Origin: Collimonas fungivorans Ter331 | Lineage (GTDB): Bacteria > Pseudomonadota > Gammaproteobacteria > Burkholderiales > Burkholderiaceae_D | Direction: 5' to 3' | Length of the DNA stretch: 64,000 nucleotides | Assembly: GCF_000221045.1 (NCBI RefSeq) | Contig: NC_015856.1 | Coordinates: 4,484,542 to 4,548,541 of the forward strand | Notes under the pieces: generated by a model | Told to the model about the DNA's origin: nothing | The model's input: only the letters and a program-made list of their open reading frames with translations | Database searches by the model: none | Part shown: positions 18,536-34,538 of the stretch, one piece after another | How the letters are laid out: each line of letters opens with the position of its first letter | Numbering within the stretch: the first letter of the stretch is position 1 | Program-made: the position numbers and the translations under genes

Positions 18536-19471
18536 TCAGACCGCGAATCCGAAACCTGGCGCTTCATGTGCCGGCAGCACCGTCACCGCCACATCCATGG
18601 TTTGCTGGCCGCCGCCGATCAGTACGCCGCGCAAGGGCGAGACATCCAGGAAATCGCGGCCCCAGCCAAGCGTGATATGGCTGGTATCGGGGAAGATGCC
18701 ATTGGTTGGATCGGCGTCGATCCAGCTGCTGGCCTGGCCATTGAATCCCGGACAGTACACCGATACCCAGGCATGCGAAGCATCGGCGCCGATCAGGCGC
18801 GGCTGGCCGGGCGGCGGTTCGGTCAGCAGGTAACCGCTGACATAACGCGCCGCCAGCCCCAGCGAGCGCAGGCAGGACAGCATAAAGTGGGCAAAATCCT
18901 GGCATACGCCGCGCCGGGTAGCGAACACCTCGGTGACCGGGGTGGAGACGGTAGTGGCCAGCGGGTCGAAGGTGAATTCCTGGAAAATCCGCGTCATCAA
19001 GGCGTTGATCCCTGCCAGCAAAGGCAGCCCCGGGGTAAACGATTCCGCCGCATATGCCAGGAATTCCCGCTTGATCCGCACATGCGCCGACTCGAACAGG
19101 TAACGCGTGGCTTCCAGGTCGTCAGGCAGCAGGAACTGGCCAGCCTGGTAGGAGAGCGCGGCGCGCCCCTGTTCCCAGGGCGGCGTCGCCGGCGGCAGCT
19201 GGCGCGGCGACAGCGTGACCCAGGATTCGGCCAGGGCGCGCAGGTCGGTATGGTCGTTTTCCAGCGAAAACGATTGCAGGGGATTGCCGAAGCTGTCGAG
19301 GAACATGCGCAGGTTTTGCGGTTCCGGCGTGATGCTGATGCCGTGCGAAGTGCAGGTCTGCCATGGCAGCGAACGCGGCGTCAGGCGCAGCATCTGGTGC
19401 GACAGGCGCACCGCCTGCGAATAGGCGTAATGGGTATCGTGGCGAATATGGTAGGTGTGATCGCTCATCAT
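18536..19471 (-). CDS. Transglutaminase-like cysteine peptidase (locus A)
   Basis: A 311-aa protein with the bacterial transglutaminase N-terminal domain (about 5-85, HIRHDTHYAYSQAVRLSHQ) and a transglutaminase-like catalytic core. The triad is present: Cys190 in RRGVCQDFAH, His233 in ASHAWVSVY and Asp254 in DADPTNG. Bacterial members are predicted to hydrolyse or transfer amide bonds. Its ATG overlaps the stop of the ATP-grasp/alpha-E gene (ATGA), so it is co-translated with a predicted peptide ligase. It is the third gene of a minus-strand set that also includes a transglutaminase-DUF2126 fusion. A homologous, distinct gene is in locus B (31061-31882). Confidence 0.88.
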   Translation of the reverse strand: MMSDHTYHIRHDTHYAYSQAVRLSHQMLRLTPRSLPWQTCTSHGISITPEPQNLRMFLDSFGNPLQSFSLENDHTDLRALAESWVTLSPRQLPPATPPWEQGRAALSYQAGQFLLPDDLEATRYLFESAHVRIKREFLAYAAESFTPGLPLLAGINALMTRIFQEFTFDPLATTVSTPVTEVFATRRGVCQDFAHFMLSCLRSLGLAARYVSGYLLTEPPPGQPRLIGADASHAWVSVYCPGFNGQASSWIDADPTNGIFPDTSHITLGWGRDFLDVSPLRGVLIGGGQQTMDVAVTVLPAHEAPGFGFAV

Positions 19472-22014
19472 GACACTCCTTGGCTGACCGGCGCGTTCAA
19501 GGGCGTGAAGAAATGCCGGGCCAGCTCGTCCGACAGCGAAAAGGCGCCGGCGATGGCGTCGCGCATCAGCTGCACCAGGCGCGCATGGGCGTCTGCCACG
19601 AACAAGGAATCATGGCTGAGGTCTTGCAGTTCGAATTCGCGCAGCACGGCCGATAGATGCGCCGGCGTGTCCATGCTGAGGGTGCCGAGCTGTTCGGCGA
19701 TATCGCTCAAATAGCGCTCCAGCATATGGAACTGGAATGCAATGCCGTGCGGATTGCTGACATCGAACACCAGCAGGTGCAGCACCGGCAGCCATTCCGG
19801 CGTGCGCCGGTAGCGCACGCGGTAGGTGACCACGCTGTTGGCCGATTCCAGCAGCCACGGCAGCGTGCGGTTCTGGCGCTCCGCCGGCAGCCGCAGGAAC
19901 TGGCCGAACAAGGTCGCCAGGTGGGTCATGCGTTCTATATGGCGGCCCAGCATCAGGAAGTGCCAGCCTTCATCGCGCGTCATGTCGTCCAGCGCATGGC
20001 CGGCCAGGCCGACGCAGGCCTGGATCACATTGTTGAGCATGTGCAGCGCGGCGGCCGGAGTTACGCCGCTGGGGCCGCTGCTGTCCGTCGTCAGGCCTGG
20101 CATGCGGTTGAGCGCCTGCCAGTTGTCCAGCGACAAATGCTCGCGCACCTGGTAGCCGCAGTGATGCAGATGGCGCAGATTGCCGGCAATGCCGACGCTG
20201 GCGGCAGGGTCGGCGATGGCGGCAATCAATGCCTGTTGCAAGGCGGCGACGGTTGGCCGTGCGGTCGCCGTGACGGCCGGCAGGGCAATCCCGAGGCCGC
20301 GGCAGATTTCGCACAGCTGGTAGAAAGTCTCGCGCGCCTCGCCCTGCAGGTCGTTGCTGCGTTGCAGGGTGGCGCGCAGCAGATGCGCCAGGTTATCGCA
20401 GCGTTCGGCGTAGCGCCCCATCCAGAACAGGTTTTCGCCGGCGTGCGATGAAATGTCGACCGTGCTCCTGATCAGATCCAGCGTGCGCTGCCGGCCATCG
20501 CCGTCTTCCGGCGGCGCTGTCGCCGGCGCCGCCGCATCGCCGACCTCATCGCGCACTGGGCTCAGCACCCAGACATCCTTGCTGGCGCCGCCCTGCTGCA
20601 TCGACACCACGTCCTTGCGCTGGCGCGGCGCGACCCGCGTCAGGCCGCCCGGCATCACATGGTAGCTGCCGTCGGCGGCGGCCACCACGAACACCCGCAA
20701 GCTGACCGCACGGCTCATCAAGCGATATTCGCCGCTGCGCGACAGCACCGGCGCCTGCGACAGCCGCACCCATTCCTGCGCCACGTAAGCGTGCGGCTGG
20801 GCCAGCAGGCTGTCGACCAGGCGCTGGCGCGATTGCGCATTCAGGCTGTGGCCATACACCGGTTGCATGCGCATCGAGGGAAACGCCGGCATGATCACCA
20901 GCTGCTCCAGGTTGGCCAAGGTATAGTCGAGCGCGGGTTTTTCACCGCACCACCAGGACGCCACCGCCGGCAGCGCCAATGGCTGGCCGAGCAGACGCTG
21001 GCAGATGGCCGGCAGGAAACCGTGCAAGGCGCCCGATTCCAGCACGCCGCTGCCGAGCGAATTGGCGATCAGCACATTGCCAAGGCGCGCCGCCTGCACC
21101 AGCCCGGGAATGCCGAGCGCGGAATCGGAGCGCAGTTCGAGCGGATCGCAATAGTCGTCATCCAGCCGCCGCAGGATCGCATGCACGCGCCGCAGGCCGC
21201 TCAGGGTCTTGAGGTAGACCATGTCGCCGCGCACCATCAGGTCCGCCCCTTCGACCAGCGGAAAGCCCAGGGTATGCGCCAGGAAGGCGTGCTCGGAATA
21301 GGTTTCGTTATACGGCCCCGGCGTCAGCAGCACCACCAGCGGCGTCTCGCCGCCAGCCGGCGCCAGCGCGTTCAGGCTGTCGTGCAGGGTATGGAAAAAT
21401 TTCAGCAGCGATTGCACATGCATGTCGCGCACCGTCTCCGGCAGCGCGCGCGACATGATCTGCCGGTTCTGCAAGGCGTAACCGGCGCCGGAAGGTCCCT
21501 GAGTGCGGTCCGACATGACCCACCAATGGCCGTCCGGCGAACGCGCCAGGTCGATTGCATACAGGTGCAGGTGTATGCCCGCCGGCGGCTCGATGCCGCG
21601 GCAAGGCCACAGGTAGCCATGCTGGCCGAACACCAGCGCCGGCGGCAGCAGGCCTTCGGACAACAGCGTCTGCGGACCGTACAAATCGGCCAGCACTGCA
21701 TTGAGCAGGCGCGCACGTTGCACCACCGCGGCGGACAAGGTCTGCCATTCGTCGGCGGAAATGATCTGCGGCAGCAGGTCCAGCTCCCAGGGCCGGTTGG
21801 CGCCCTGCGGATCGGCGTACACATTGTAGGTCACGCCATCGGCGGCAATCGCTTCGCGCACCTCGCGCGCGCGGCGCCGCAGGATCTCCGGCGACAGCCC
21901 TTCGAGCTGGTCGATCAGGGTACGCCAGTGCGGCCGCAAGCGGCCGCCGGCTTCCAGCATTTCGTCGTAACGATCCGCCTCTGCGGGATAACTCTCGAGT
22001 AAACGCCGGTACAT
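19468..22014 (-). CDS. Circularly permuted ATP-grasp / alpha-E fusion protein (locus A)
   Basis: An 848-aa two-domain protein. Residues about 1-485 are a circularly permuted ATP-grasp domain (LLTPGPYNETYSEHAF, RRLDDDYCDPLELRSDSALG, GGLTRVAP, QQGGASKDVW); residues about 520-848 are an alpha-E domain (ENLFWMGRYAERCDNLAHLL; DEGWHFLMLGRHIERM). Locus B encodes the same two domains as separate proteins. Where the locus-B ATP-grasp has Lys365 and a GAGGYGM loop, this one has LVIMPAFPSMRMQPVYG, lacking both, so ATP binding may differ or be lost. Predicted role: amide-bond ligase acting with transglutaminase-type peptidases; the substrate is unknown. A 125-bp gap separates it from the 1122-aa gene upstream. 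Confidence 0.85.
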   Translation of the reverse strand: MYRRLLESYPAEADRYDEMLEAGGRLRPHWRTLIDQLEGLSPEILRRRAREVREAIAADGVTYNVYADPQGANRPWELDLLPQIISADEWQTLSAAVVQRARLLNAVLADLYGPQTLLSEGLLPPALVFGQHGYLWPCRGIEPPAGIHLHLYAIDLARSPDGHWWVMSDRTQGPSGAGYALQNRQIMSRALPETVRDMHVQSLLKFFHTLHDSLNALAPAGGETPLVVLLTPGPYNETYSEHAFLAHTLGFPLVEGADLMVRGDMVYLKTLSGLRRVHAILRRLDDDYCDPLELRSDSALGIPGLVQAARLGNVLIANSLGSGVLESGALHGFLPAICQRLLGQPLALPAVASWWCGEKPALDYTLANLEQLVIMPAFPSMRMQPVYGHSLNAQSRQRLVDSLLAQPHAYVAQEWVRLSQAPVLSRSGEYRLMSRAVSLRVFVVAAADGSYHVMPGGLTRVAPRQRKDVVSMQQGGASKDVWVLSPVRDEVGDAAAPATAPPEDGDGRQRTLDLIRSTVDISSHAGENLFWMGRYAERCDNLAHLLRATLQRSNDLQGEARETFYQLCEICRGLGIALPAVTATARPTVAALQQALIAAIADPAASVGIAGNLRHLHHCGYQVREHLSLDNWQALNRMPGLTTDSSGPSGVTPAAALHMLNNVIQACVGLAGHALDDMTRDEGWHFLMLGRHIERMTHLATLFGQFLRLPAERQNRTLPWLLESANSVVTYRVRYRRTPEWLPVLHLLVFDVSNPHGIAFQFHMLERYLSDIAEQLGTLSMDTPAHLSAVLREFELQDLSHDSLFVADAHARLVQLMRDAIAGAFSLSDELARHFFTPLNAPVSQGVS

Positions 22015-22139
22015 GATTATTCGCTTGCGTCACTTGAAACGGTTAAATGCACATCCTGCCGCCAAGGCTGCGAAAAATCGCAGCGCAAACTGGAAATAGT
22101 TGCGCTACGGCTTTTCTGCACCACGGCTGCCGAGCTTGA

Positions 22140-25100
22140 TCAGAAGTGACGTAAGTCTAACGTAAATGGGAACTCGATGGATGCTATCGGTTGCCTTACC
22201 TGCATCGGCCCTGGGGTATGGTTGAGGCGGAAATAACGCCCCAGGCGCCGGCTTTCGGCTTCGAAGGCATTGACCGGGAACGTCTCGTAGCTGCGCCCGC
22301 CGGGATGCACCACGTGATACTGGCAACCGCCCAGGCTGCGGCCGTTCCAGGTATCGACCAGGTCGAAGGTCAGCGGCGAGTCGATGCCGATGGTCGGATG
22401 CAGGGCCGACGGCGGCTGCCAGGCGCGGTAACGCACGCCGCTGACGAATTCGCCGACCCGGCCGGTCGGCTGCAGCGGCACCGGTACGCCGTTGCAGGTC
22501 AGCACATAACGATCCGGCGCCATGCCGTTCACCTTCACCTGCAAGCGCTCCAGCGAAGAATCGACGTAACGGGCGTTGCCGCCGGAACGGCTTTCCTCGC
22601 CCAGCACATGCCACGGCTCGAGCGCGGTGCGCAATTCCAGCCCGATGCCATTGATGGCAAAGTCGCCGATTTTCGGGAACCTGAACTCGAAATGCGGCGC
22701 AAACCACTCCGGCTTGAATGCGTAACCGGCCTGCTGCAGGTCGCCCATCACATCGCAGAAATCCTGCCAGATGAAGTGCGGCAGCAGGAAACGGTCGTGC
22801 AGCTCGGTGCCCCAGCGCACCAGGCGCGGCGGCTTGTACGGCGTTTTCCAGAAACGCGCCACCAGCGCCCGCAGCAACAGTTGCTGGGTCAGGCTCATGC
22901 GCGCATGCGGCGGCATTTCGAATGCGCGCAGCTCCAGCAGGCCGAGGCGGCCGGTGCTGCTGTCGGGCGAATACAGCTTGTCGATGCAGAATTCGGCGCG
23001 ATGCGTGTTGCCGGTGACGTCGATCAGCAGGTTGCGCAGCAGCCGGTCGACCAGCCATGGCGCACAACCGTCTTTCGCCAGCTGCTTGTCCATTTCGGTA
23101 AACGCCAGCTCCAGTTCGACCACCGCATCGTTGCGCGCTTCGTCGACGCGCGGCGCCTGCGACGTCGGGCCGATGAACATGCCGGAAAACAGGTAAGACA
23201 GCGCCGGATGGTTGTGCCAGTAGCTGATCAGGCTGCGCAGCAGGTCGGGCCGGCGCAGGAACGGCGAATCGCTGGTGGTGGCGCCGCCCAGCACCAGGTG
23301 GTTGCCGCCGCCAGTGCCGGAATGGTGGCCGTCGAGCATGAATTTCTCGGTGGTCAGGCGGGTCTCGCGCGCTACGTCGTACAGATAGGTGGTGTTGCTT
23401 ACCAGCTCGCTCCAGCTGTGCATGGGCTGGATATTCACTTCGATCACGCCGGGATCGGGCGTGACGCTGAACTTGGCCAGGCGCGGATCGTGGGGCGGCT
23501 CATAACCTTCCATCAGCAACGGCTGCTCCAGGGCCTGCGCCGTGGCCTCGATCGCCGCCACCAGTTCCAGGTAATCTTCCAGCCGCTCCAGCGGCGGCAT
23601 GAACAGGTACAGCACGCCCTGCCGTACTTCCGCGCACAGGGCGGTGCGGGCAATCTGGTCAGCCGATTCGAACGGCGCCGGCGCCGCCTGCGCTTCGCTG
23701 GTGAAGGCTGCGCTGTATGAAGTGGAGCTGTACGAAGTCGAGCTGTACTTCGGCGCATCAGCCGCGGTCGCCCTAGCGGCAGCAACCGGAGTCGCCAGCT
23801 GCTGGCGGATTTGCTGGGTAACCGGCAGCGGCTGGAATTCCTGAGTCGGGTCCTGCTGGTGCACAAAGGGGTAATCAGCCTTCTTGACCCAAGGCTGCGA
23901 ATCGAGCGGCAAGCGATAGCCCAGGGGAGAATCGCCCGGCAGCAGATAGCAGTGTTCGCCGCGCAAGTACCAGCTCGTGCTTTGCCAGCTGCTTTCATCG
24001 GCGGAGCGGACCAGCGGCAATACGTAGCCGGCGACCTTGCGCAAGCCTTGCGAAAAGACCCGCGCCAGCCGCGCCCTTTCCTGCTTGTCGTCCAGCCGCG
24101 CGTCGGACGGATCGACGTTGATCGCCAGCCGGCGTTCGCGCCACAGGTAATAGTAGATGTCTTCATAGGCCGCGAATACGTACTGCCGCTCCAGCGTCAG
24201 CCGTGCGGCAACGCCATGCAAGAAGCGCTCGGCGATATTGTCGTCGGTGGCTTGTTTCTTGGTTTCGTCGGCAATCAAGGCCGGCGTCGACCAGATCGGC
24301 TCGCCGTCGCGGCGCCAGTAGCAATTCAGCGCCCAGCGCGGCAGCTGCTCGCCCGGATACCATTTGCCCTGGCCGAAATGCGGCAAGCCTTGCGCTGCAT
24401 ATTGCAGGCGCAGCCGATGGTAGAGTTCGGCCGCCAGCGGCTTCTTGGTGGGGCCCATGGCGGCCGTGTTCCATTCTTCGCCTTCGGGATCGTCAAGCGC
24501 GACGAAAGTCGGTTCGCCGCCCATCGTCAGGCGCACGTCGAGTTCGTCCAGGTCGTCGTCGATGGCGTGGCCCAGCTCTTCGATCTCTTCCCACTGCTGT
24601 TCGCTGTACGGCTTGGTGACGCGCGGCGACTCCCAGATGCGGCGCACGCTCATCGCATGTTCGAATTCGACTTCGCATGGCTCCACCATGCCGCTGACCG
24701 GCGCCGCCGACGACGGTTCCGGCGTGCAGGAAAGCGGGATATGCCCTTCGCCGGCGAACAGGCCGGAGGTGGGATCAAGGCCGATCCAGCCGGCGCCGGG
24801 CAGGTAGACCTCGCACCAGGCGTGCAGGTCGGTGAAGTCGGTCTGCGGGCCGGACGGGCCGTCGAGCGATTTCTGGTCGGCCGTCAGCTGGATCAGGTAG
24901 CCGGAGACGAAACGCGCCGCCAGCCCGAGGTAGCGCAATATCTGCACCAGCAGCCAGGACGAATCGCGGCATGAGCCGGAACCGAGGGTTAACGTCTGTT
25001 CCGGCGTCTGCACACCAGGTTCCATGCGGATGGTGTAGCTGATCAGCTGCGCCAGCTGCTGGTTCAGGCTGACCAGGAAGTCTTCCGTGCGGATCCTTTC

Positions 25101-25508
25101 GCGCGGCACCTGGTCCAGGAACTTCTGCAGCAGGGGCGTCAGCGGCAGTTTCTTGCGGTACGGCTCGAGCTCGTTCTGCAGTTCGGGGGCATAAGAAAAC
25201 GGCACTTTCTCGGCATACGGCTCAAGAAAAAAGTCGAACGGATTGAGCACCGACATTTCCGCCACCAGGTCGACCTCAATGCGGAATTCGCTGGCCTTTT
25301 CCGGAAACACCAGCCGCGCCAGGTAATTGGCCTGCGGGTCCTGTTGCCAGTTGATGAAATGCGGCTCCGGCAGTATTCGCAGCGAATAGCTGAGGATGCG
25401 GGTGCGGCAATGCGGCGCCGGGCGCAGGCGGATGATCTGAGGCCCGAGGGTGATCGGGCGCTCGTAACGATAGGTGGTGAGATGATTGAGTGCTACGTGA
25501 ATTGACAT
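22140..25508 (-). CDS. Transglutaminase-DUF2126 (putative amidoligase) fusion protein (locus A)
   Basis: A 1122-aa two-part protein. Residues 1-270 are a transglutaminase-type peptidase with N-terminal domain and an intact triad: Cys180 (GSGSCRDSSW), His229 (DLHAWCEVY) and Asp245 (WIGLDPTSG). The rest is DUF2126, classed as a putative glutamine-synthetase-like amidoligase, with DVRLTMGGEPTFV, GVIEVNIQPMHSW, FMLDGHHSGTGGGNH and NTHRAEFCIDKLYSP. The start at 25506-25508 has AGAGGAT upstream. A Ser/Tyr-rich linker near residues 586-599 is encoded by a 15-bp tandem repeat. It heads locus A. Predicted activity: one half makes an amide bond and the other hydrolyses or transfers one; the substrate is not known. 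Confidence 0.85.
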   Translation of the reverse strand: MSIHVALNHLTTYRYERPITLGPQIIRLRPAPHCRTRILSYSLRILPEPHFINWQQDPQANYLARLVFPEKASEFRIEVDLVAEMSVLNPFDFFLEPYAEKVPFSYAPELQNELEPYRKKLPLTPLLQKFLDQVPRERIRTEDFLVSLNQQLAQLISYTIRMEPGVQTPEQTLTLGSGSCRDSSWLLVQILRYLGLAARFVSGYLIQLTADQKSLDGPSGPQTDFTDLHAWCEVYLPGAGWIGLDPTSGLFAGEGHIPLSCTPEPSSAAPVSGMVEPCEVEFEHAMSVRRIWESPRVTKPYSEQQWEEIEELGHAIDDDLDELDVRLTMGGEPTFVALDDPEGEEWNTAAMGPTKKPLAAELYHRLRLQYAAQGLPHFGQGKWYPGEQLPRWALNCYWRRDGEPIWSTPALIADETKKQATDDNIAERFLHGVAARLTLERQYVFAAYEDIYYYLWRERRLAINVDPSDARLDDKQERARLARVFSQGLRKVAGYVLPLVRSADESSWQSTSWYLRGEHCYLLPGDSPLGYRLPLDSQPWVKKADYPFVHQQDPTQEFQPLPVTQQIRQQLATPVAAARATAADAPKYSSTSYSSTSYSAAFTSEAQAAPAPFESADQIARTALCAEVRQGVLYLFMPPLERLEDYLELVAAIEATAQALEQPLLMEGYEPPHDPRLAKFSVTPDPGVIEVNIQPMHSWSELVSNTTYLYDVARETRLTTEKFMLDGHHSGTGGGNHLVLGGATTSDSPFLRRPDLLRSLISYWHNHPALSYLFSGMFIGPTSQAPRVDEARNDAVVELELAFTEMDKQLAKDGCAPWLVDRLLRNLLIDVTGNTHRAEFCIDKLYSPDSSTGRLGLLELRAFEMPPHARMSLTQQLLLRALVARFWKTPYKPPRLVRWGTELHDRFLLPHFIWQDFCDVMGDLQQAGYAFKPEWFAPHFEFRFPKIGDFAINGIGLELRTALEPWHVLGEESRSGGNARYVDSSLERLQVKVNGMAPDRYVLTCNGVPVPLQPTGRVGEFVSGVRYRAWQPPSALHPTIGIDSPLTFDLVDTWNGRSLGGCQYHVVHPGGRSYETFPVNAFEAESRRLGRYFRLNHTPGPMQVRQPIASIEFPFTLDLRHF
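23711..23750. repeat. 15-bp tandem repeat inside the DUF2126 gene
   Basis: About 2.7 copies of a GCTGTANGAAGTNGA unit encode the repeated SSTSY segment of the interdomain linker. It is in frame, so copy-number change would alter only linker length. Confidence 0.75.
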
Positions 25509-25540
25509 GGATATCCTCTGCGACAATCAATAAGTAGTTC

Positions 25541-25621
25541 GTAGGGTGGGCACCCGTGCCCACGCGTGACCGTGATAACCGGAGTGCAGGCAACAGCGTG
25601 GGCACACAGTGCCCACCCTAC
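25541..25621. repeat. BIME-like repeat, copy 2
   Basis: Same structure as copy 1 at 1885-1967: GTAGGGTGGGCAC-CC-GTGCCCACGC at the left, the inverse GCGTGGGCAC...GTGCCCACCCTAC at the right, and a non-conserved centre of about 28 bp. The right end supplies the TAG stop codon of phaZ on the minus strand. The left end lies 32 bp upstream of the transglutaminase-DUF2126 start. Confidence 0.8.
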
Positions 25622-26841
25622 TGATGGCTGTGGATGAAATCGCGCAGGCGCGGGTAAATTTCATTGTCCCAGCGCCGGCCGTTGAAGACCCCATAATGCC
25701 CGACCCCGGTCTGCACATGATGCGATTTCATGTACGGCCGTATGCCGCTGCACATGTCCTGGGCGGCCACGGTCTGGCCTACTGCGCAAATATCATCCTT
25801 CTCTCCTTCTACGGTGAACAATGCGGTGCGCCGGATCGCCGACGGCTCTATCGTACGCCCGAATGCCTGCATTTCGCCAAGCGGCAATGCATGGTCCTGG
25901 AATACGCTTTGCACGGTTTCCAGGTAAAACTCCGCCGCCAGGTCCGACATGGCGAAATATTCGGCGTAAAACGTCTTGATGGTGTTGGCTTTTTCGTCCT
26001 CGCCGTCGACCAGGTAGTTGTACAGGTTCTGGAAGGCCTTGAGGTGACGCTCCAGGTTCATGCTCATGAACGCATTCAGTTGCAGGAAACCGGGATAGAC
26101 CTGGCGCTGGCTGCCGGCGAAACGGCCGGGAACGGTGCTCACCAGGTTCTTCTGGAACCACTCGATCGGCTTGCTTTTCGCCAGCTGGTTGACCGCGGTA
26201 GGATTGATGCGGGTATCGATAGGGCCGGCCATCAGGGTCATGCTGGACGGCTGCGCCGGATGCTTGTCGGCCGCCATCAGCGACACCGCCACCAGCGCCG
26301 CCACGGTCGGCTGGCAGACTGCCACCACGTGCGTGCCGGGGCCGATCTTCTCGATGAAGCGGATCAGGTGGGCGACATATTCGTCGAAACCGAAACGGCC
26401 GTCGCTAAGGGCGACGTCGCGGGCGTTGTGCCAGTCGGTGATATACACGTCATGGTCGCGCAACAAGGTGTTCACGGTGCCGCGCAACAAAGTGGCGAAA
26501 TGCCCGGACATGGGCGCAACCAGGAGGATGCGCGGCTGCACGGCCTTGGTTTCTTTACGGAAACGCAACAGAGTGCAGAACGGCGTCTGGTCGCTTATTT
26601 CTTCATGCACCGAAACCGTGCGCCCATTCTCTTCCACGCTGTCTATCCCGAATGCAGGGCGCTGGTGCGTCAACTGGGTGCATGAAAACAGTTCGCAGGC
26701 GGCGGCCAGCTTGCGCAGCGCGAGGCTGTCAGGCCAACCGGGAAAACGGTAGCCCAACATCGGTGCGGCAGCGCCAGCCCACGCACGCATCGGATCGCTG
26801 AAATCCGCATAGCCCTGATATGCCTGGTAAATTTTAGTCAT
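25618..26841 (-). CDS. phaZ: Intracellular polyhydroxyalkanoate depolymerase
   Basis: Degrades stored polyhydroxybutyrate granules to hydroxybutyrate oligomers in the cytoplasm. The 407-aa protein is standard length for PhaZ1 of Burkholderiales. It has the alpha/beta-hydrolase core with a Cys nucleophile in place of Ser (VAVCQPTVAA, Cys176), the HNARDVALSDGRFGFDEYV segment and the C-terminal His in GVGHYGVFNGRRW. The frame is open upstream through the MITE-like element, but the ATG at 26839-26841 gives the family N-terminus MTKIYQAYQGYADFSDP. Its TAG stop is part of the BIME-like repeat. It lies between the two transglutaminase/amidoligase loci; a functional link is not evident. Confidence 0.92.
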   Translation of the reverse strand: MTKIYQAYQGYADFSDPMRAWAGAAAPMLGYRFPGWPDSLALRKLAAACELFSCTQLTHQRPAFGIDSVEENGRTVSVHEEISDQTPFCTLLRFRKETKAVQPRILLVAPMSGHFATLLRGTVNTLLRDHDVYITDWHNARDVALSDGRFGFDEYVAHLIRFIEKIGPGTHVVAVCQPTVAALVAVSLMAADKHPAQPSSMTLMAGPIDTRINPTAVNQLAKSKPIEWFQKNLVSTVPGRFAGSQRQVYPGFLQLNAFMSMNLERHLKAFQNLYNYLVDGEDEKANTIKTFYAEYFAMSDLAAEFYLETVQSVFQDHALPLGEMQAFGRTIEPSAIRRTALFTVEGEKDDICAVGQTVAAQDMCSGIRPYMKSHHVQTGVGHYGVFNGRRWDNEIYPRLRDFIHSHQ

Positions 26842-26948
26842 GGGACTACCCTGTTTATTGGAATGCCGGCAAACGTAGCAGGTGCAATATCCATGCCCAT
26901 ATCTCTGGCACGGCCTTTGCTCAGTAGACATCAACCGGTTTGCCAATA

Positions 26949-27212
26949 GGGCCTGTTGACATTCAATTTGGGAGTGCGAACGCGCGGCAGGCGTTACAGG
27001 CCTAGGCGCGACGACGCGACGTAGTGGTGCTACGGCAAGGAGGAGCAACAACGGCATGTGACGCCTGCAGCCGTTCCCGGAGGGTTCAAACCAAAACGTG
27101 CGCTGGGCGCGTTGCATGGCTTGCAGGGGCGGCCTGCCCCTGCGACGCCACGCGTCTTGCCAGCACACGTTTTGGTTTGAACGCATCTCCCAAATTGAAT
27201 GTCAACAGGCCC
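26949..27212. repeat. MITE-like element 2, flanked by TA, with nested palindrome
   Basis: A 264-bp element in the 407-bp divergent gap between phaZ and the GST gene. The ends are a 27-bp near-perfect inverted repeat (GGGCCTGTTGACATTCAA...), flanked by TA (26947-26948, 27213-27214). Inside are a GCGACGTAGTGGTGCTACGG dyad and a second long palindrome at 27085-27181 (TTCAAACCAAAACGTG...CACGTTTTGGTTTGAA). The central core resembles that of element 1 in order and sequence. No transposase is encoded, so it is non-autonomous. The rest of the gap (26842-26946, 27215-27248) holds only promoter-length sequence. Confidence 0.75.
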
Positions 27213-27248
27213 TAAAACGCTTTCGATCCAATACGGAAGAATATTGCC

Positions 27249-27902
27249 ATGCCTAAGACCACCTTGAGCATCACCAGTAAAAACTATTCGTCGTGGTCCT
27301 TGCGCGGCTGGCTGCTGACCAGGTTCTCCGGACTGGAATTCCAGGAAAACCTGATCTCGCCGGACGATCCGGACGCACGCGCCGAAATCCTGCTGCTGTC
27401 GTCGTCGATCCTGGTGCCCTGCCTGTATCACGGCAACATCGTGGTGTGGGATACCCTGGCCATCGGCGAGTACCTGCACGAGATCCGGCCCAAGGCCGGG
27501 CTGCTGCCGGCGGACCGCGCTGCGCGCGCGCACTGCCGCTCGATCTGCGGCGAAATGCATTCCGGCTTCAGCGCCCTGCGCTCGGCGCTGCCGATGAACA
27601 TCAAGGCGCGCTTCCCCGACTTCAAGGTGTGGTCGCGCGCCGAAGCCGACATCAAGCGCATCACCACTATCTGGAAACAATGCCTGGCGACCTATGGCGG
27701 CCCGTTCCTGTTCGGCGAGCGCTCGATGGCCGACGCCATGTACGCGCCGGTGGCGACGCGCTTTCTGACGTACGATGTAAAGCTGGATTCCGTCTGCAGC
27801 GCCTATTGCAAGCGCATCATGGCGTTGCCGGAAATGCAGGAATGGATCAAGGCGGCCAAGCTGGAGCCGGACGATATCAATGAACTGGACGTGGAATTCT
27901 GA
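27249..27902 (+). CDS. Glutathione S-transferase family protein
   Basis: A 217-aa cytosolic GST-fold protein: an N-terminal thioredoxin-like domain (LSITSKNYSSWSLRGWLL, with the Ser-Trp-Ser pattern at the glutathione site, and the cis-Pro in LVPCLYHG) and an all-helical C-terminal domain (LFGERSMADAMYAPVATRF). This branch usually conjugates or reduces small electrophiles; the substrate is unknown. It is divergent from phaZ across the MITE-like element and is followed 35 bp later by a cupin gene on the same strand, with which it may be co-transcribed. Confidence 0.88.
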   Translation: MPKTTLSITSKNYSSWSLRGWLLTRFSGLEFQENLISPDDPDARAEILLLSSSILVPCLYHGNIVVWDTLAIGEYLHEIRPKAGLLPADRAARAHCRSICGEMHSGFSALRSALPMNIKARFPDFKVWSRAEADIKRITTIWKQCLATYGGPFLFGERSMADAMYAPVATRFLTYDVKLDSVCSAYCKRIMALPEMQEWIKAAKLEPDDINELDVEF

Positions 27903-27937
27903 AAACGGTTTCCGATGCCAAGGAAAGGATAGCTGCA

Positions 27938-28381
27938 ATGGATACAAAGACAGAAGCTGGACCCAAGACCGTGTTCTCCCATGTGCGCGAAGGCGACACC
28001 GAATTCGAATCGGGCGGCTTGCGCGATTTTTTCCTGTACCGCGATCTCGGCATCGCCGCCGCCACCGGCGGCCAGGTGGTGGCGCACCTGGTGAAAGCCA
28101 ACATGGCGCCCGAGGTCGGCACCGGCTGGCACCGGCATGAAGCCGATTTCCACATCGTCTATATGCTCAAAGGCTGGGCGCGCTTCATGTACGAGGACAA
28201 GGAAACGCTGGTCAAGGCCGGCGACTGCGTGCACCAGCGGCCGGGCATCGTGCATTTTTTATTCGACTACTCGGAAGACATGGAGTATCTTGAAATCGTC
28301 AGCCCGGCGGCATTCACTTCGATCGACATGCCCGCACCGTGTCCTGTCCCGGCGCCGGCGCCATGGCCCAAGGAGGGTTGA
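27938..28381 (+). CDS. Cupin-domain protein
   Basis: A 147-aa single-domain cupin. The metal-binding motif 1 is visible as GTGWHRHEADFHIVYMLKG (two His and a Glu, then a third His) and motif 2 as GDCVHQRPGIVHFL. The C-terminal tail is rich in Pro and Ala (PAPCPVPAPAPWPKEG). Small cupins of this kind are either metal-dependent enzymes or sensors; nothing specific can be assigned. It follows the GST gene by 35 bp and precedes locus B by 261 bp. Confidence 0.85.
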   Translation: MDTKTEAGPKTVFSHVREGDTEFESGGLRDFFLYRDLGIAAATGGQVVAHLVKANMAPEVGTGWHRHEADFHIVYMLKGWARFMYEDKETLVKAGDCVHQRPGIVHFLFDYSEDMEYLEIVSPAAFTSIDMPAPCPVPAPAPWPKEG

Positions 28382-28386
28382 GCGGC

Positions 28387-28527
28387 ATGGTTGAACAGCA
28401 TTTAATACAGCAGTTTTTGCAATCAGATCATCACGGAGGCCACCACCCAGATTATGCAAAATTTGCTAAGAGCGAACCTGGCATTGCCGAAAATAAAGCC
28501 TATTCAACCAGCAAGATCGCATGTTAA
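28387..28527 (+). CDS. Possible 46-aa His-rich small protein
   Basis: A short frame beginning 5 bp after the cupin stop, with GGAGG 14 bp upstream inside the cupin's last codons. It encodes a soluble peptide containing SDHHGGHHPDYAKF and ending in Cys. No homologue is recognised. It could be a real small protein coupled to the cupin gene or chance; base composition drops to AT-rich toward its end, which argues for caution. Confidence 0.25.
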   Translation: MVEQHLIQQFLQSDHHGGHHPDYAKFAKSEPGIAENKAYSTSKIAC

Positions 28528-28593
28528 TCTTTAATTAATATAATGCTGAGTTAGCAACGAATAGGCAACAACCGGCTTGTTACGGGCACGCTT

Positions 28594-28612
28594 CTTGATA
28601 GCTACTTGATAG
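28594..28612. promoter_or_regulatory. Direct repeats upstream of locus B
   Basis: CTTGATAG occurs twice with an 11-bp period (28594-28601 and 28605-28612), one helical turn apart, 31 bp before the ATP-grasp start. A TATAAT lies further upstream at 28539-28544 in an AT-rich stretch. This could be an activator or regulator site for the operon; no regulator gene is adjacent. Confidence 0.35.
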
Positions 28613-28642
28613 TTTCCGATCAAACCACAGCAAAGCAAGATC

Positions 28643-30058
28643 ATGGCAAATTTTTTCGATGAAATGTACTCCGATGGCAATTCGTCGGTGCGCCCGCACT
28701 ATAACGAATTTTCCAATTGGCTCAACGCCCAGACCGCTGAAACGATTGCCCGCAAACGCGCCGAAGCCGACCTGATTTTCCGCCGGGTCGGGATTACCTT
28801 CGCCGTGTACGGCAACGATGCCGGCACCGAACGTCTGATCCCCTTCGACATCATTCCGCGCATCATCCATGCGCAGGAGTGGGCAACGCTGGAAGCCGGC
28901 CTGATCCAGCGCGTCAAGGCGCTCAATATGTTCATCCACGACATCTACCACGACCAGAACATCGTCAAGGCAGGCGTGATCCCGGCGGAACAGATTTTCC
29001 GCAACGCCCAGTACCGCCCCGAAATGCAGGGCATCTCGGTCGCTTCGGATATCTACGCGCACATTGCGGGGGTCGATATCGTACGCGCCGGCGAGGGCGA
29101 GTTCTACGTCCTCGAAGATAACCTGCGGGTGCCGTCGGGCGTGTCCTACATGCTGGAAAACCGCAAGATGATGATGCGGCTGTTCCCCGAACTGTTCCTG
29201 CGTCACAAGATCGCGCCGGTCGACCATTATCCCGACATGCTGCTGGATAACCTGCGTTCGGTGGCGCCGGTCGGCGTCACCGATCCGACGGTGGTGGTGA
29301 TGACGCCGGGGATGTACAACTCGGCCTACTTCGAACATGCTTTCCTGGCGCAGCAGATGGGCGTCGAGCTGGTCGAAGGACAGGACCTGTTCGTCAACGA
29401 CAATCACGTCTACATGCGCACCACGCGCGGCCCCAAGCGGGTCGACGTGATCTATCGCCGGATCGACGACGACTATCTCGATCCGCTCGCCTTCCGCGCC
29501 GATTCATCGCTCGGCGTGCCGGGCCTGCTGTCGGTCTACCGCGCCGGCAACGTCACGCTGGCGAACGCAATCGGCACCGGCGTCGCCGACGACAAGTCGG
29601 TCTACCCGTTCGTGCCGGACATGGTGCAGTTCTACCTGTCGGAAAAACCGATCCTGAACAACGTCCCGACTTTCCAGTGCCGCAAGAAAGAAGACTTGCA
29701 ATACACCCTGGACAACCTCAAGGACCTAGTGGTCAAGGAAGTGCATGGCGCCGGCGGCTACGGCATGCTGGTCGGCCCGGCGTCGACCAAGCAGGAAATC
29801 GAGGATTTCCGCCAACGCGTGCTGGCCAAGCCGGACGGTTATATTTCCCAGCCGACGCTGGCCTTGTCGGCTTGCCCGACCTATGTCGAATCCGGCATCG
29901 CACCGCGCCACCTGGACCTGCGGCCATTCGTATTGTCCGGCAAGAATGTCTCCCTGGTGCGCGGCGGCCTGACCCGCGTCGCCCTCAAGGAAGGTTCGCT
30001 GGTGGTCAACTCGTCCCAAGGCGGCGGCACCAAAGACACCTGGATTCTGGAGAAATAA
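28643..30058 (+). CDS. Circularly permuted ATP-grasp protein (locus B)
   Basis: A 471-aa ATP-grasp ligase of the DUF404/DUF407 circularly permuted type, predicted to form amide bonds through an acyl-phosphate. Visible elements: VLEDNLRVPSGVSYMLENR (157-174), MTPGMYNSAYFEHAFLA, RRIDDDYLDPLAFRADSSLG (metal/nucleotide region, DDDY at 275-278), Lys365 followed by the glycine loop GAGGYGM (369-375), DLRPFV (425-430), GGLTRVA and NSSQGGGTKDTW. All expected ATP-site elements are there, unlike in the locus-A paralogue. It starts a four-gene plus-strand set: alpha-E (1 bp gap), transglutaminase (1 bp overlap) and Anbu protease. Substrate unknown. Confidence 0.88.
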   Translation: MANFFDEMYSDGNSSVRPHYNEFSNWLNAQTAETIARKRAEADLIFRRVGITFAVYGNDAGTERLIPFDIIPRIIHAQEWATLEAGLIQRVKALNMFIHDIYHDQNIVKAGVIPAEQIFRNAQYRPEMQGISVASDIYAHIAGVDIVRAGEGEFYVLEDNLRVPSGVSYMLENRKMMMRLFPELFLRHKIAPVDHYPDMLLDNLRSVAPVGVTDPTVVVMTPGMYNSAYFEHAFLAQQMGVELVEGQDLFVNDNHVYMRTTRGPKRVDVIYRRIDDDYLDPLAFRADSSLGVPGLLSVYRAGNVTLANAIGTGVADDKSVYPFVPDMVQFYLSEKPILNNVPTFQCRKKEDLQYTLDNLKDLVVKEVHGAGGYGMLVGPASTKQEIEDFRQRVLAKPDGYISQPTLALSACPTYVESGIAPRHLDLRPFVLSGKNVSLVRGGLTRVALKEGSLVVNSSQGGGTKDTWILEK

Positions 30059-30059
30059 C

Positions 30060-31061
30060 ATGCTCAGTCGCACCGCCGACCATTTGTTCTGGATGTCCCG
30101 CTATACCGAGCGGGCAGAAAATACCGCACGCATGCTGGACGTGCACGTGCAGACCGGGCTGCTGCCGCAGTCGGTCGAAGATGTGGAAAAAGGCTGGCGC
30201 GCAGTGCTCGGCATTTCCGAGCTGACCCATGCCTACGACAAGAAATACAGCGTGGTCACGCAAAAAGACGTGATCGACTTCATGGTGCGCGATCCCAGCA
30301 ATTCGTCCTCGATCGCCTCCTGCCTGAAACAGGCGCGCGAGAATGCGCGCGCAGTACGCGGCGCGCTGACCACCGAAGCCTGGGAAATCCAGAACGCCAC
30401 CTGGATCAAGATGCAGGGTTATCTGCAGACCAACGCGCTGGAGCAGAACCCCAGCGAATTCTTCGAGTGGGTCAAACACCGCTCGCACCTGTCGCGCGGC
30501 GTCACCATCGGCACCATGCTCAAGGACGAGGCCTTCCACTTTATCCGTCTCGGCACCTTCCTGGAGCGCGCCGACAACACCGCGCGCATCATCGACGTCA
30601 AATTCCACGGCGCCAAGGAAGGCGCCTATACGAAGAACCTGCAGAACCAGAACGGCCAGCGGCAAAGCCAGGAACAGGATGCGATCGCCGATCCGCAAAT
30701 CGATTTCTATTACTGGGCGGCGATCCTGCGTTCCGTGTCAGGTTTTGAGATCTACCGCAAGGTGTACCGCGACGTCATCACGCCGGCGCGCGTGGCCGAC
30801 CTGCTGATCTTGCGGCCGGACATGCCGCGCTCGCTGCTGTCGTGCATGGAACAAGTGGTCGGCAATCTCAAGCATGTGCATAACGACACGTCCTCCGACA
30901 CCGAACGCTTCGCAGGAAAATTGCATGCCGACCTGAAGTTCAGCAATCTCGAGGAGATCCTGGACGCCGGCCTGCATGATTACCTGACCCGCTTCTTCGA
31001 ACGGATCTTCGAGCTTGGCAATCGCATCAGCCGCGATTTCCTGGTGCCCCTCAACACCTGA
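30060..31061 (+). CDS. Alpha-E domain protein (locus B)
   Basis: A 333-aa all-helical protein of the alpha-E (DUF403) family, always found with circularly permuted ATP-grasp proteins; its molecular role is unknown and it has been suggested to act as a partner or substrate-handling unit. The sequence contains an internal near-duplicate: ERAENTARMLDV (17-28) and ERADNTARIIDV (169-180), nine of twelve positions identical, suggesting two related helical halves. In locus A the same domain is fused to the ATP-grasp and the two motifs are degenerate. It starts 1 bp after the ATP-grasp stop and its own stop overlaps the transglutaminase start, so all three are translationally coupled. Confidence 0.88.
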   Translation: MLSRTADHLFWMSRYTERAENTARMLDVHVQTGLLPQSVEDVEKGWRAVLGISELTHAYDKKYSVVTQKDVIDFMVRDPSNSSSIASCLKQARENARAVRGALTTEAWEIQNATWIKMQGYLQTNALEQNPSEFFEWVKHRSHLSRGVTIGTMLKDEAFHFIRLGTFLERADNTARIIDVKFHGAKEGAYTKNLQNQNGQRQSQEQDAIADPQIDFYYWAAILRSVSGFEIYRKVYRDVITPARVADLLILRPDMPRSLLSCMEQVVGNLKHVHNDTSSDTERFAGKLHADLKFSNLEEILDAGLHDYLTRFFERIFELGNRISRDFLVPLNT

Positions 31062-31882
31062 TGGCCGACATGCTCCTTACCATCCGGCATGAAACGGTTT
31101 ACCACTACACCGCGGCGCTGACCTACACGATCCAGCAGCTGCGGCTGTCGCCGCGCGCGGAAGCCCAGCAGCGCACGCTGGCGTGGCATATCAGCAGCTC
31201 GGGCAACCGCCATCCCTACATCGATGCGTTCGGCAACCTGTGCCATACGCTGACTGTCACCAAGCCGCACCATGAGGTGCGCATCATCGCCGAAGGCACG
31301 GTCGCGGTGACGCCGCTGCAGCAAGGGCGGCTGCCGCAGGCGGGGGAGTTTTCACCGCTGGTGTTTACCGTGCCGACCCAGCTGACCCAAGCCACCGCGG
31401 CAGTCATGGATTTCGCCCATAAGAATTTGCGCGCGGGCGCCGGCAGCAGGCAGCTGCTGGAGCTGGCGCAGGCGATCTGCGCGACGGTGGCTTACCAGAG
31501 CGGCTCGACTGCGGTCACCAGCAGCGCCGACGATGCGCTGGCGCTGGGCCAGGGCGTGTGCCAGGACCATGCGCACCTGTTCCTGGCTTGCTGTCATATA
31601 GCGGGCATCCCGGCACGTTACGTGTCGGGTTATATCGATCCCGGCAACACCAATCACGCGGAAAGCCATGCCTGGGTCGACGTCTGGGTGCAGGAAGGCG
31701 ATTTCGCCGGCTGGATCAGCATCGATGTGACTCATGCCTGTTTTGCCAGCGACAACTATTGCAGGCTGGCAATCGGACGCGACTACGATTCGGCCGCGCC
31801 GGTGCGCGGCGTGCGGCGCGGCGGCGGCGAAGAGACACTGACTGTGCAAGTCAATGTTTCTGCCTTACCATCTGATCAATAA
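31061..31882 (+). CDS. Transglutaminase-like cysteine peptidase (locus B)
   Basis: A 273-aa protein with the bacterial transglutaminase N-terminal domain (LLTIRHETVYHYTAALTYTIQQLRLSP, in part) and the catalytic core: Cys167 in GQGVCQDHAH, His203 in ESHAWVDVW and Asp222 in WISIDVTHA. It ends with RGVRRGGGEETL, as is usual for this family next to ATP-grasp/alpha-E genes. The likely activity is hydrolysis or transfer of an amide bond made by the partner ligase. It overlaps the alpha-E stop by 1 bp and is followed by a 127-bp AT-rich gap before the Anbu gene. Confidence 0.88.
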   Translation: MADMLLTIRHETVYHYTAALTYTIQQLRLSPRAEAQQRTLAWHISSSGNRHPYIDAFGNLCHTLTVTKPHHEVRIIAEGTVAVTPLQQGRLPQAGEFSPLVFTVPTQLTQATAAVMDFAHKNLRAGAGSRQLLELAQAICATVAYQSGSTAVTSSADDALALGQGVCQDHAHLFLACCHIAGIPARYVSGYIDPGNTNHAESHAWVDVWVQEGDFAGWISIDVTHACFASDNYCRLAIGRDYDSAAPVRGVRRGGGEETLTVQVNVSALPSDQ

Positions 31883-32009
31883 GAGAATCAATAAGCGGCT
31901 TACACAAATTTACAATAAATTGTCGTATTATTAACATAAAACCTTGATCTGACCGGGAAACCGCCCTGGCTTCCTGTAAAATCGCCACTTTGCATTTTTC
32001 TTCGACACC

Positions 32010-32882
32010 ATGACTTACTGCGTTGCCCTTCGCCTGGAATCCGGCCTGGTTTTTCTTTCCGACTCCCGCACCAATGCGGGCGTGGACCATGTCGCCACCT
32101 CGCGCAAGATGAGCGTGTTCGAAAATCCCGGCGAACGCCTGATGGTGTTCATGACCGCCGGCAACCTGTCGATTTCACAGTCGATCAAGGAAATCATCGG
32201 CGAACACATGAATGGCGCCGGCAAGACCATCTGGACCGTGGATTCGATGTACGAAGCGGCGCAGATCGTCGGCGAGGCGATTCGCACCGTGTATGAGCGA
32301 GAAGCAAAGGCGCTGGAAAAATTCGGCATCGATTTCAACGTCAGCATCATTTTCGGCGGCCAGATCAAGGGCGAGCGCTGCCGCTTGTTCCAGATTTATT
32401 CGGCCGGCAATTTCATCGAATCGCACAACGAAAACACCTACTTCCAGATCGGCGAATCGAAATACGGCAAGCCGATACTTGACCGTGTCATCACACCTGC
32501 GTCAACGCTGGACGAAGCGGCAAAATGCGCATTGATTTCGATGGATTCGACGCTGCGCTCGAATGTCTCGGTTGGCTTGCCGCTGGATATGCTGCTGTAT
32601 GAAAACGATACGCTGGCGGTCACGCGCTTTGTCACCATCGGCGAGAAGAACCAGTATTTCCAGATGATCCGCGAAAACTGGGGCAAGCAGCTCAAAAGCG
32701 TATTCGACGGCATCGCCGATCCGGTCTGGAACGCCGATCCGGCAACCACCTCGAATGTGCTGTCGGCGCAAGGCTCGCGCAGCGAACCGCTGGTAGTCAC
32801 GCCGCCGCAAGGAGTCGGCAACGACAGCCAGCCGGCGCCGCTGCAGACCCTGGCGCAGGGAAGCAACGGCAAACAGCATTAA
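32010..32882 (+). CDS. Anbu (ancestral beta-subunit) proteasome-like protease
   Basis: A 290-aa Ntn-hydrolase of the Anbu family. After Met removal the nucleophile is Thr1 (MTYCVAL); Asp17 and Lys32 of the SDSRTNAG...SRKMSVF stretch match the proteasome/HslV active site. The N-terminal 240 residues are the beta-subunit fold; the last 50 are a variable Ser/Pro/Gln-rich tail. Anbu proteins assemble into multimers, but their substrates are not established, and they are known to co-occur with ATP-grasp, alpha-E and transglutaminase genes, as here. The 127-bp AT-rich gap upstream could hold a separate promoter. A strong terminator follows. Confidence 0.9.
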   Translation: MTYCVALRLESGLVFLSDSRTNAGVDHVATSRKMSVFENPGERLMVFMTAGNLSISQSIKEIIGEHMNGAGKTIWTVDSMYEAAQIVGEAIRTVYEREAKALEKFGIDFNVSIIFGGQIKGERCRLFQIYSAGNFIESHNENTYFQIGESKYGKPILDRVITPASTLDEAAKCALISMDSTLRSNVSVGLPLDMLLYENDTLAVTRFVTIGEKNQYFQMIRENWGKQLKSVFDGIADPVWNADPATTSNVLSAQGSRSEPLVVTPPQGVGNDSQPAPLQTLAQGSNGKQH

Positions 32883-34461: not shown

Positions 34462-34538
34462 GTTTAAGAAGTGTGCTGCATTCGTGAAGGGGACAGTGTG
34501 CCAGAAGCCGGCGCAGGCTGCCCCAATGAAACCAATCC

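Follow-up and report, generated by a model that had tools for sequence, protein, structure and literature searches.

The operon of Anbu, a proteasome relative, was described earlier as four genes that encode an ATP-grasp protein, an Alpha-E protein, a transglutaminase-like protein and Anbu itself (PMC6376114, PMC5666114). The ATP-grasp protein of Yersinia bercovieri is reported to release phosphate in an ATP-dependent manner, and specific interaction of the Y. bercovieri Anbu with its operon partners was not detected in the experiments described in the portion of that article compared here (PMC6376114). An operon of this type, designated locus B, lies within a stretch of 64,000 nucleotides from Collimonas fungivorans Ter331 (contig NC_015856.1, positions 4,484,542 to 4,548,541; hereafter the window), next to a second and differently built set of related genes, designated locus A. 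The two loci and the three genes between them (window positions 18536–32882) are the subject of this report. Loci A and B look like the add-on and the base of one pathway, a relationship that is new here.

Control of such genes by NtrC and sigma-54 is known or predicted in other bacteria. In Pseudomonas putida the genes PP_2685–2688 are likely controlled by NtrB/NtrC (PMC7801951); PP_2685 and PP_2688 are both up-regulated, and the promoter of PP_2688 is induced 3.7-fold by nitrogen depletion (PMC8050072). The sigma-54 regulons predicted for alpha-, beta- and gamma-proteobacteria include COG3484 (Anbu) (PMC12316311), and transglutaminase, DUF403, DUF404 and DUF407 domains cluster with urea metabolism in marine metagenomes (PMC3597751). 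In Burkholderia cenocepacia H111 the genes I35_5080-83, which encode a DUF404/DUF407 protein, a DUF403 protein and two transglutaminase-domain proteins (one of them large), depend on NtrC and sigma-54, as do I35_4672-73 at a separate locus, which encode a polyhydroxybutyrate (PHB) depolymerase and a glutathione S-transferase (GST) (PMC5491218). The latter pair is the counterpart of what sits between loci A and B here. In the portions of the literature on DUF2126, Alpha-E and circularly permuted ATP-grasp proteins that were compared, predictions, structures and expression data are reported, and no substrate was found.

Locus B is the known Anbu operon. Its four genes lie on the plus strand at 28643–32882 in the conserved order, and the catalytic residues of Anbu are kept. 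The first gene, agB (28643–30058), encodes a circularly permuted ATP-grasp protein of 471 residues (Pfam CP_ATPgrasp, E = 3e-168). It is followed by aeB (30060–31061), for a stand-alone Alpha-E protein of 333 residues (Pfam Alpha-E, E = 7e-99), by tgB (31061–31882), for a stand-alone transglutaminase-like protein of 273 residues (Pfam), and by the gene for Anbu (32010–32882), a proteasome-like N-terminal nucleophile (Ntn) hydrolase of 290 residues. Among solved structures the matches of this protein are five distinct chains (E = 2.6e-88 to 2.5e-64), of which three bear the name Anbu and two the name Peptidase. Unlike the described operon, locus B is accompanied here by an add-on of DUF2126 and ATP-grasp/Alpha-E genes, by phaZ, GST and cupin genes, and by sigma-54-like promoters between phaZ and GST. 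The add-on, locus A, lies on the minus strand. It comprises tgD-DU (22140–25508), for a fusion of a transglutaminase with DUF2126, a predicted amidoligase (1122 residues from ATG 25508; Pfam, 1361 bits for DUF2126); agA-aeA (19468–22014), for a fusion of a circularly permuted ATP-grasp protein with Alpha-E (848 residues; CP_ATPgrasp E = 4e-153, Alpha-E E = 1e-61); and tgA (18536–19471), for a stand-alone transglutaminase-like protein of 311 residues (PF08379 Bact_transglu_N and PF01841 Transglut_core). All of the genes that the initial annotation had named in the two loci are thus present, with strong Pfam matches. The whole genome, a single contig of 5.19 Mb, has two Alpha-E matches, both inside the window.

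Dependence of locus A on locus B

The distribution of the families was determined in three overlapping samples of 187 (class), 100 (order) and 299 (phylum) genomes. DUF2126 was found in 33, 28 and 96 genomes, Alpha-E in 56, 50 and 172, and Anbu in 46, 47 and 120, respectively. Alpha-E is present in every genome that carries DUF2126 (33/33, 28/28 and 96/96; 151 of 151 distinct genomes), and the association is strong in each sample (Fisher p = 6e-22, 2e-11 and 7e-31, with shared ancestry not corrected for). The dependence is one-way, as Alpha-E occurs without DUF2126 in 23, 22 and 76 genomes of the class, order and phylum samples. Anbu was cross-tabulated with DUF2126 in the class and order samples and is a usual but not obligatory companion (27/33 and 25/28 DUF2126 genomes). 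Fused and stand-alone forms of Alpha-E were assigned by hand from the class and order rows, where the ATP-grasp/Alpha-E fusion accompanies DUF2126 in 15/17 and 16/16 cases. The initial annotation had taken the two loci for one functional unit, to be abandoned if they were gained and lost independently; no such independence was found, and the proposal stands.

The ATP-grasp proteins of the two loci (36% identity) differ at conserved residues. Residues E158, N160, R162, D317, K318, D425, N456 and S458 of agB are present in all 94 aligned B-type copies and in none of the 102 A-type copies. The GGYG loop (371–374) is kept at each position in 93 or 94 of the 94 B-type copies, and the A-type copies retain G371 in 3, G372 in 16, Y373 in 1 and G374 in 2 of 102; these counts, like those of the aligned transglutaminase and Anbu copies below, include close relatives, many of them from Pseudomonas. 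E158 and N160 form the E-x-N motif, which we take to bind metal in the ATP-grasp fold, and the residues as a whole presumably line the active site. Position 160 is Arg in 100/102 and position 162 is Gln in 95/102 of the A-type copies, and the A type therefore has a motif of its own rather than simple decay. Given the loss of these residues, locus A is probably not a second complete ligase system. The agA half of the fusion is probably not a canonical ligase, and may serve as a scaffold or specificity subunit instead, and agB, whose only close solved relative is 3n6x_A (E = 2e-233), is a probable active amide ligase. Loss of the ligase function of agA would provide a simple explanation for why locus A was never found without locus B. 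The earlier description of two complete systems is not supported, the word complete being doubtful for locus A, and neither is the count of two ATP-grasp ligases, since the A type lacks residues that every aligned B-type copy keeps.

The Cys-His-Asp triad is intact in all three transglutaminases of the window. Cys190, His233 and Asp254 of tgA are kept in 95/95 aligned copies (window included), Cys180, His229 and Asp245 of tgD-DU in 139/139 aligned copies, and Cys167, His203 and Asp222 are present in the tgB protein of the window, which is 32% identical to tgA. In the order sample, a tgB gene (called only where the tgB profile scored best) was found in 0/16 agB-aeB loci with a DUF2126 fusion within 1.5 kb versus 13/17 loci without one (p = 5e-6). 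The gap between the Alpha-E and Anbu genes is only 38, 174 and 146 nucleotides in loci L043, L121 and L156, respectively, where locus A is present and no room is left for tgB. Loci L044 and L045, which like L043 belong to the same family as the window, are without DUF2126 and keep tgB. The window retains both tgB and the DUF2126-fused transglutaminase. From these sequences, the fused transglutaminase is apparently able to replace tgB within the order. The catalytic Cys is lost in 3 of 22 aligned tgB-type rows (L072, L162 and L163), all of them beside DUF2126 genes; the 22 rows include one DUF2126-fused domain (L181). The residue that replaces Cys is Ser in two Achromobacter genomes (L162:9968 and L163:1423), beside the DUF2126 gene.

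The physical linkage of the genes was assessed in 81 annotated stretches of up to about 20 kb from the class and order samples and in 80 loci of named genomes with 10-kb flanks, which limits the statements to distances within 10 kb. DUF2126 loci without a partner and with less than 7 kb of flank on either side were dropped from the counts, including L047 (genome G189) and L055 (G210). The DUF2126 gene often lies in or beside an agB-aeB cluster, in several arrangements, and agB or aeB is found within 10 kb of DUF2126 in 24/29 class, 22/25 order and 34/63 named-genome loci judged. The closest named-genome matches of the DUF2126 protein of the window are from Herbaspirillum aquaticum and H. frisingense (77% identity; very near records possibly excluded). 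The Herbaspirillum loci L121 and L156 are arranged almost as in the window: the Anbu, Alpha-E, ATP-grasp, cupin and GST genes share one strand, phaZ and locus A occupy the other, and tgB is absent. In a Burkholderiaceae metagenome-assembled genome (L178) phaZ, cupin and GST genes adjoin locus A in a different order, and strong sigma-54-like sites are absent.

Two independent amidoligase systems that lie side by side by chance would fit the opposite strands of the loci, the many genomes that have B without A, and the many Pseudomonas genomes in which A is more than 10 kb from B. That explanation was rejected because DUF2126 is never found without Alpha-E in 151 genomes. It also runs against the clusters that A and B share in several arrangements, the absence of B-type residues from the A-type ATP-grasp protein, the loss of tgB that accompanies the fused transglutaminase within the order, and the sigma-54-like promoters of both operons in the order; it is regarded as highly improbable.

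Promoter-like sites of the cluster

The genes between the loci are phaZ (25618–26841, minus strand), for an intracellular PHB depolymerase (TIGR01849) encoded 109 bp upstream of locus A on the same strand, and, on the plus strand, genes for a GST-like protein (27249–27902; Pfam) and a cupin-domain protein (27938–28381; Pfam Cupin_2, E = 1.7e-9). It is true, as initially annotated, that nothing else lies between A and B, and phaZ and GST themselves seem to belong to the same sigma-54/NtrC regulon as the two loci. Sites were scored with a sigma-54 matrix and an NtrC palindrome in consensus forms with self-set weights. The top score in the window is an exact pattern match at 26906–26921 on the plus strand, towards GST, cupin and locus B, and the second best of 127,970 scored window positions is at 26883–26898 on the minus strand, towards phaZ and locus A. 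The two best sigma-54-like sites of the window thus form a divergent pair in the phaZ-GST gap and point outward.

Similar sites were found in relatives. Orthologues of phaZ (56–62% identity) have a divergent GST gene in 6/6 fetched relatives, with intergenic sites scoring at least 11 towards GST in 5/6 and towards phaZ in 4/6. More distant phaZ genes (44–48% identity) lack the GST gene at 23/23 fetched loci and have a site of at least 11 towards phaZ in 3/23; phaZ matches were read at 30 loci, and matches in 8 further genomes were left out. Sites of at least 11 are present in the order leaders of agB (27/36) and DUF2126 (6/12) and absent from those of Anbu (0/9), with 1.3% of 238 controls at this score. 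Palindromes that match at least 10 of the 12 NtrC letters were found in 13/50 order leaders versus 78/1840 random stretches. A weak sigma-54-like site precedes locus B at 28584–28599 on the plus strand (score 8.4, p = 0.16 alone), and the same-family loci L044 and L045 have a similar site at nearly equal distance from locus B (p = 0.07 and 0.04). In the Herbaspirillum loci L121 and L156 the phaZ-GST sites score 17.6 to 19.2 and the other cluster genes at most 7.1. On this evidence a single predicted nitrogen-limitation regulon seems to comprise phaZ, GST, A and B.

The sigma-54 pair might instead drive phaZ and GST only, with other promoters for A and B and an adjacency due to chance or to chromosome position. 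Six other order genomes do have a phaZ-GST block of the sigma-54 type at a distance from A and B, and two elements sit between the promoters and the operons of the window. One is a perfect 13-bp inverted repeat with 55 nucleotides between its arms, located between phaZ and locus A (25541–25621). The other is a 268-bp repeat element, similar to a miniature inverted-repeat transposable element (MITE), with perfect 28-bp terminal inverted repeats; at 26947–27214, it separates the plus-strand sigma-54 site from the start of GST. No terminator-like site is listed in the phaZ-to-A or cupin-to-B gaps, which argues against separate control, and all seven order genomes in which a phaZ-GST block was seen carry DUF2126 (p = 7e-5, uncorrected; the 8 further genomes left out apply here as well). 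In Herbaspirillum the sites before agB (2.6 and 4.1) and DUF2126 (3.3 and 1.5) are weak, and most order relatives have strong sites before agB. Restriction of the pair to phaZ and GST is considered rather unlikely, and control of the whole cluster as one regulon is preferred.

The 268-bp element has seven copies in the genome, that of the window included and one of them split, besides shorter fragments; were it absent, the GST-side promoter and the start of GST would be about 59 bp apart. A single arm of the 13-bp repeat recurs at position 1885. A second phaZ paralogue (45% identical) is found in the same genome at G000:C1:2989440-2990663. At L072:7301, in order genome G276, the genes for the ATP-grasp/Alpha-E fusion and for DUF2126 flank a partial phaZ match (60% identical over 124 residues).

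Protein models, gene starts and neighbouring genes

The model of the aeB protein is all helical, with a predicted local distance difference test (pLDDT) score of 92.3 and a predicted template modelling (pTM) score of 0.90. No fold in the PDB matched it at E ≤ 0.001 (best E = 0.38, TM 0.15), and its sequence has no PDB match up to E = 0.1. Homology between the two halves of Alpha-E is evident from their hhalign match (E = 6e-20, 137 columns). The halves align in 43/56 rows with a score that was attained in 0/100 shuffles, and each half of the window protein carries one ER motif (ERAENTAR and ERADNTAR). Since the halves align, Alpha-E looks, in the model, like a duplicated helical domain, a feature that is new here, with a fold that may be unsolved so far.

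In the model of the DUF2126 fusion (pLDDT 81.2) the first part resembles solved transglutaminases (3isr, E = 4e-13), and the Pfam name of DUF2126 is Putative amidoligase enzyme. Thr1, Asp17 and Lys32 are present in the Anbu protein of the window, and the catalytic Thr, Asp and Lys are present in 54/54 aligned copies. In one genome of the order sample (G262, C5:57500–58324) a 61% identical Anbu was found with no Alpha-E match; Anbu can thus occur without Alpha-E.

The DUF2126 fusion probably starts at ATG 25508 rather than at the in-frame TTG 25526. The start of phaZ was moved to 26841, because the TIGR01849 model begins at residue 120 of the 522-residue open reading frame (ORF), its matches from other genomes start no earlier than residue 96 of this ORF (save two weak ones, E = 2e-4 or worse), and residues 1–80 are read from the 268-bp repeat element. 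A 522-residue phaZ protein was thus discarded, as the 35 residues after the repeat-encoded ones fall in the promoter stretch; ATG 26841 is probably the start.

An M20-type dipeptidase-like gene (16937–18496, minus strand) lies 39 bp downstream of tgA. It was rejected as a member of locus A, being absent beside A, at the thresholds used, in the relatives examined. In an ORF of 362 residues at 33802–34890 the deoxynucleoside kinase domain does not begin until about residue 150, and the long N-terminal part ahead of it may reflect a wrong start.

Proposed pathway and comparison with known systems

The region 18536–32882 would be read outward from the back-to-back sigma-54 promoters, with phaZ and A on the minus strand and GST, cupin and B on the plus strand. 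In nitrogen starvation NtrC and sigma-54 would turn the cluster on. Locus B would provide the basic amide-bond pathway, with agB as the ligase, Alpha-E, a transglutaminase-like cysteine amidase or transferase, and the Ntn hydrolase Anbu. Locus A would be an add-on that needs B and contributes the DUF2126 amidoligase-transglutaminase and the ATP-grasp/Alpha-E fusion. The agB protein with Alpha-E may make or attach a small peptide or isopeptide of enzymatic origin, which the DUF2126-transglutaminase may then edit or lengthen. The transglutaminases and Anbu may cleave it and so recycle the amino acids, and breakdown of PHB by PhaZ would supply carbon and energy. One regulated nitrogen-limitation pathway with A as an add-on to B is considered likely. 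Its basis here is gene content, nesting, clustering, residue loss and promoter-like sites, and the dependence on nitrogen and NtrC comes from other bacteria.

A number of results weigh against this reading. On the side of regulation, the window has only a weak sigma-54-like site immediately before locus B, and read-through to B is uncertain because the 268-bp repeat separates the promoter from GST. The best NtrC-like palindrome around phaZ-GST has 8 of 12 letters in the window (560 bases), and none above 8 was seen in Herbaspirillum. Outside the order, in the remaining class loci, sites of at least 11 are less enriched (5/17, 8/22 and 1/14, with 4.6% of 175 controls). The Anbu gene of P. putida is up only 1.12-fold in the wild type, with its three neighbours up 11- to 15-fold (PMC7801951). 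The main texts of nitrogen-regulation studies on Pseudomonas stutzeri, Mycobacterium smegmatis and Paraburkholderia phymatum contain none of the transglutaminase or proteasome terms looked for, and the response is therefore not reported everywhere. On the side of linkage, B genes are missing within 10 kb of 29 of the 63 named-genome DUF2126 loci judged, many of which are Pseudomonas loci, and in two order genomes outside the linkage count A and B are about 21 kb (G189) and about 100 kb (G210) apart. No tgB was detected in 23/23 class loci, with DUF2126 adjacent or not, and among the named genomes tgB occurs in 0/13 DUF2126-adjacent loci but also in only 3/17 non-adjacent ones; replacement of tgB is therefore seen only within the order sample. 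On the side of chemistry, the A-type ATP-grasp proteins retain D145 (100/102), R427 (101/102), K365 (76/102) and D465 and W467 (100/102), so that another kind of activity is possible. Glutamine synthetases were matched by the DUF2126 model in Foldseek only below threshold (E = 0.18 and 0.20, ranks 38 and 40), under mostly transglutaminase matches. Published Anbu assays, that of Y. bercovieri included, gave no activity on standard peptides in the part of the report compared (PMC6376114).

For the chemistry taken alone, a cycle of tagging and recycling is preferred, at a tentative level. Its fullest form is an enzyme-made rather than gene-encoded peptide mark for tagging and amino-acid recycling in nitrogen starvation, with the logic of pupylation built from other parts and with the promoter pair as the coupling to PHB mobilisation. 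There agB and Alpha-E would write the mark, the pseudo-ATP-grasp/Alpha-E and DUF2126-transglutaminase proteins would edit it, and Anbu would remove it or degrade the marked proteins. This detailed form is speculative and rather improbable.

The product may instead be a soluble nitrogen or redox metabolite and not a protein tag. When nitrogen is limiting, the agB and DUF2126 proteins would then produce a peptide that resembles glutathionylspermidine or serves for storage, and the transglutaminases and Anbu would hydrolyse it. The role of the GST would be to use or shield a thiol product. The solved relative 3n6x_A was deposited as a putative glutathionylspermidine synthase, but this name is the guess of its depositors. 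The GST gene adjoins at the same promoter region, although GST families are broad. The cluster showed no additional small conserved gene (no model search was made for one), and the lack of cleavage of standard peptides by Anbu in the assays cited above also agrees with a metabolite. A storage product would be of doubtful use when nitrogen is limiting. A metabolite is possible, though not favoured.

Simple genetic predictions follow from the fact that A depends on B but not the reverse, and from the apparent exchange of one transglutaminase for the other within the order. Nitrogen limitation is when to look, and the single divergent cluster of Herbaspirillum-type bacteria is where to look. The likely chemistry lies with agB, DUF2126, the three transglutaminases and Anbu, and the A-type ATP-grasp protein probably does not catalyse ordinary ligation, as judged from its residues. 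Anbu, Alpha-E and DUF2126 have been predicted as amide-bond machinery for years and are now testable as one pathway, and a product, if found, would account for what Anbu, a relative of the proteasome that occurs in 120 of the 299 sampled phylum genomes, does in the cell.

The gene families, the Anbu operon and its known or predicted NtrC/sigma-54 control are already known. Relative to the literature compared, which excludes the founding 2009 survey, the nesting, the transglutaminase swap, the residue loss in A, the phaZ-GST promoter pair that joins A and B, and the duplicated Alpha-E are new. The NtrC/sigma-54 regulons of P. putida and B. cenocepacia, in the parts of those reports compared, contain the same families, including the pair of PHB depolymerase and GST. 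They differ in that two groups of genes lie there at distant locus numbers, and a single divergent cluster of 14 kb is found here. The cluster resembles a sigma-54/NtrC regulon in its −24/−12 promoter, found by sequence in the window and in relatives.

The rlo operon and the RimK/RimB pair are alike in that an ATP-grasp protein is paired with a peptidase, and rlo adds a transglutaminase-fold protein (PMC12239564). According to the sections of that article compared, the rlo transglutaminase is inactive and fused to seven membrane helices, and the RimK/RimB and rlo peptidase is aspartic (PMC12239564). Unlike these, the transglutaminases of the window keep Cys-His-Asp, the ATP-grasp protein is circularly permuted, and the peptidase is different. 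An envelope role as in the rlo operon was set aside for the cluster, whose transglutaminases are, as far as their residues tell, not of the inactive kind.

In actinobacteria, the pupylation-proteasome pathway joins an amide-ligase family to a proteasome-type hydrolase and is linked to nutrient limitation. No gene for Pup, a proteasome ATPase or a 20S subunit came to notice in the cluster, at which no search for them was aimed, and the ligase pair and the transglutaminases here belong to other families. The cluster would work like pupylation, with an amide ligase, a proteasome-type hydrolase and a link to nutrient limitation in common, and is not a member of that pathway.

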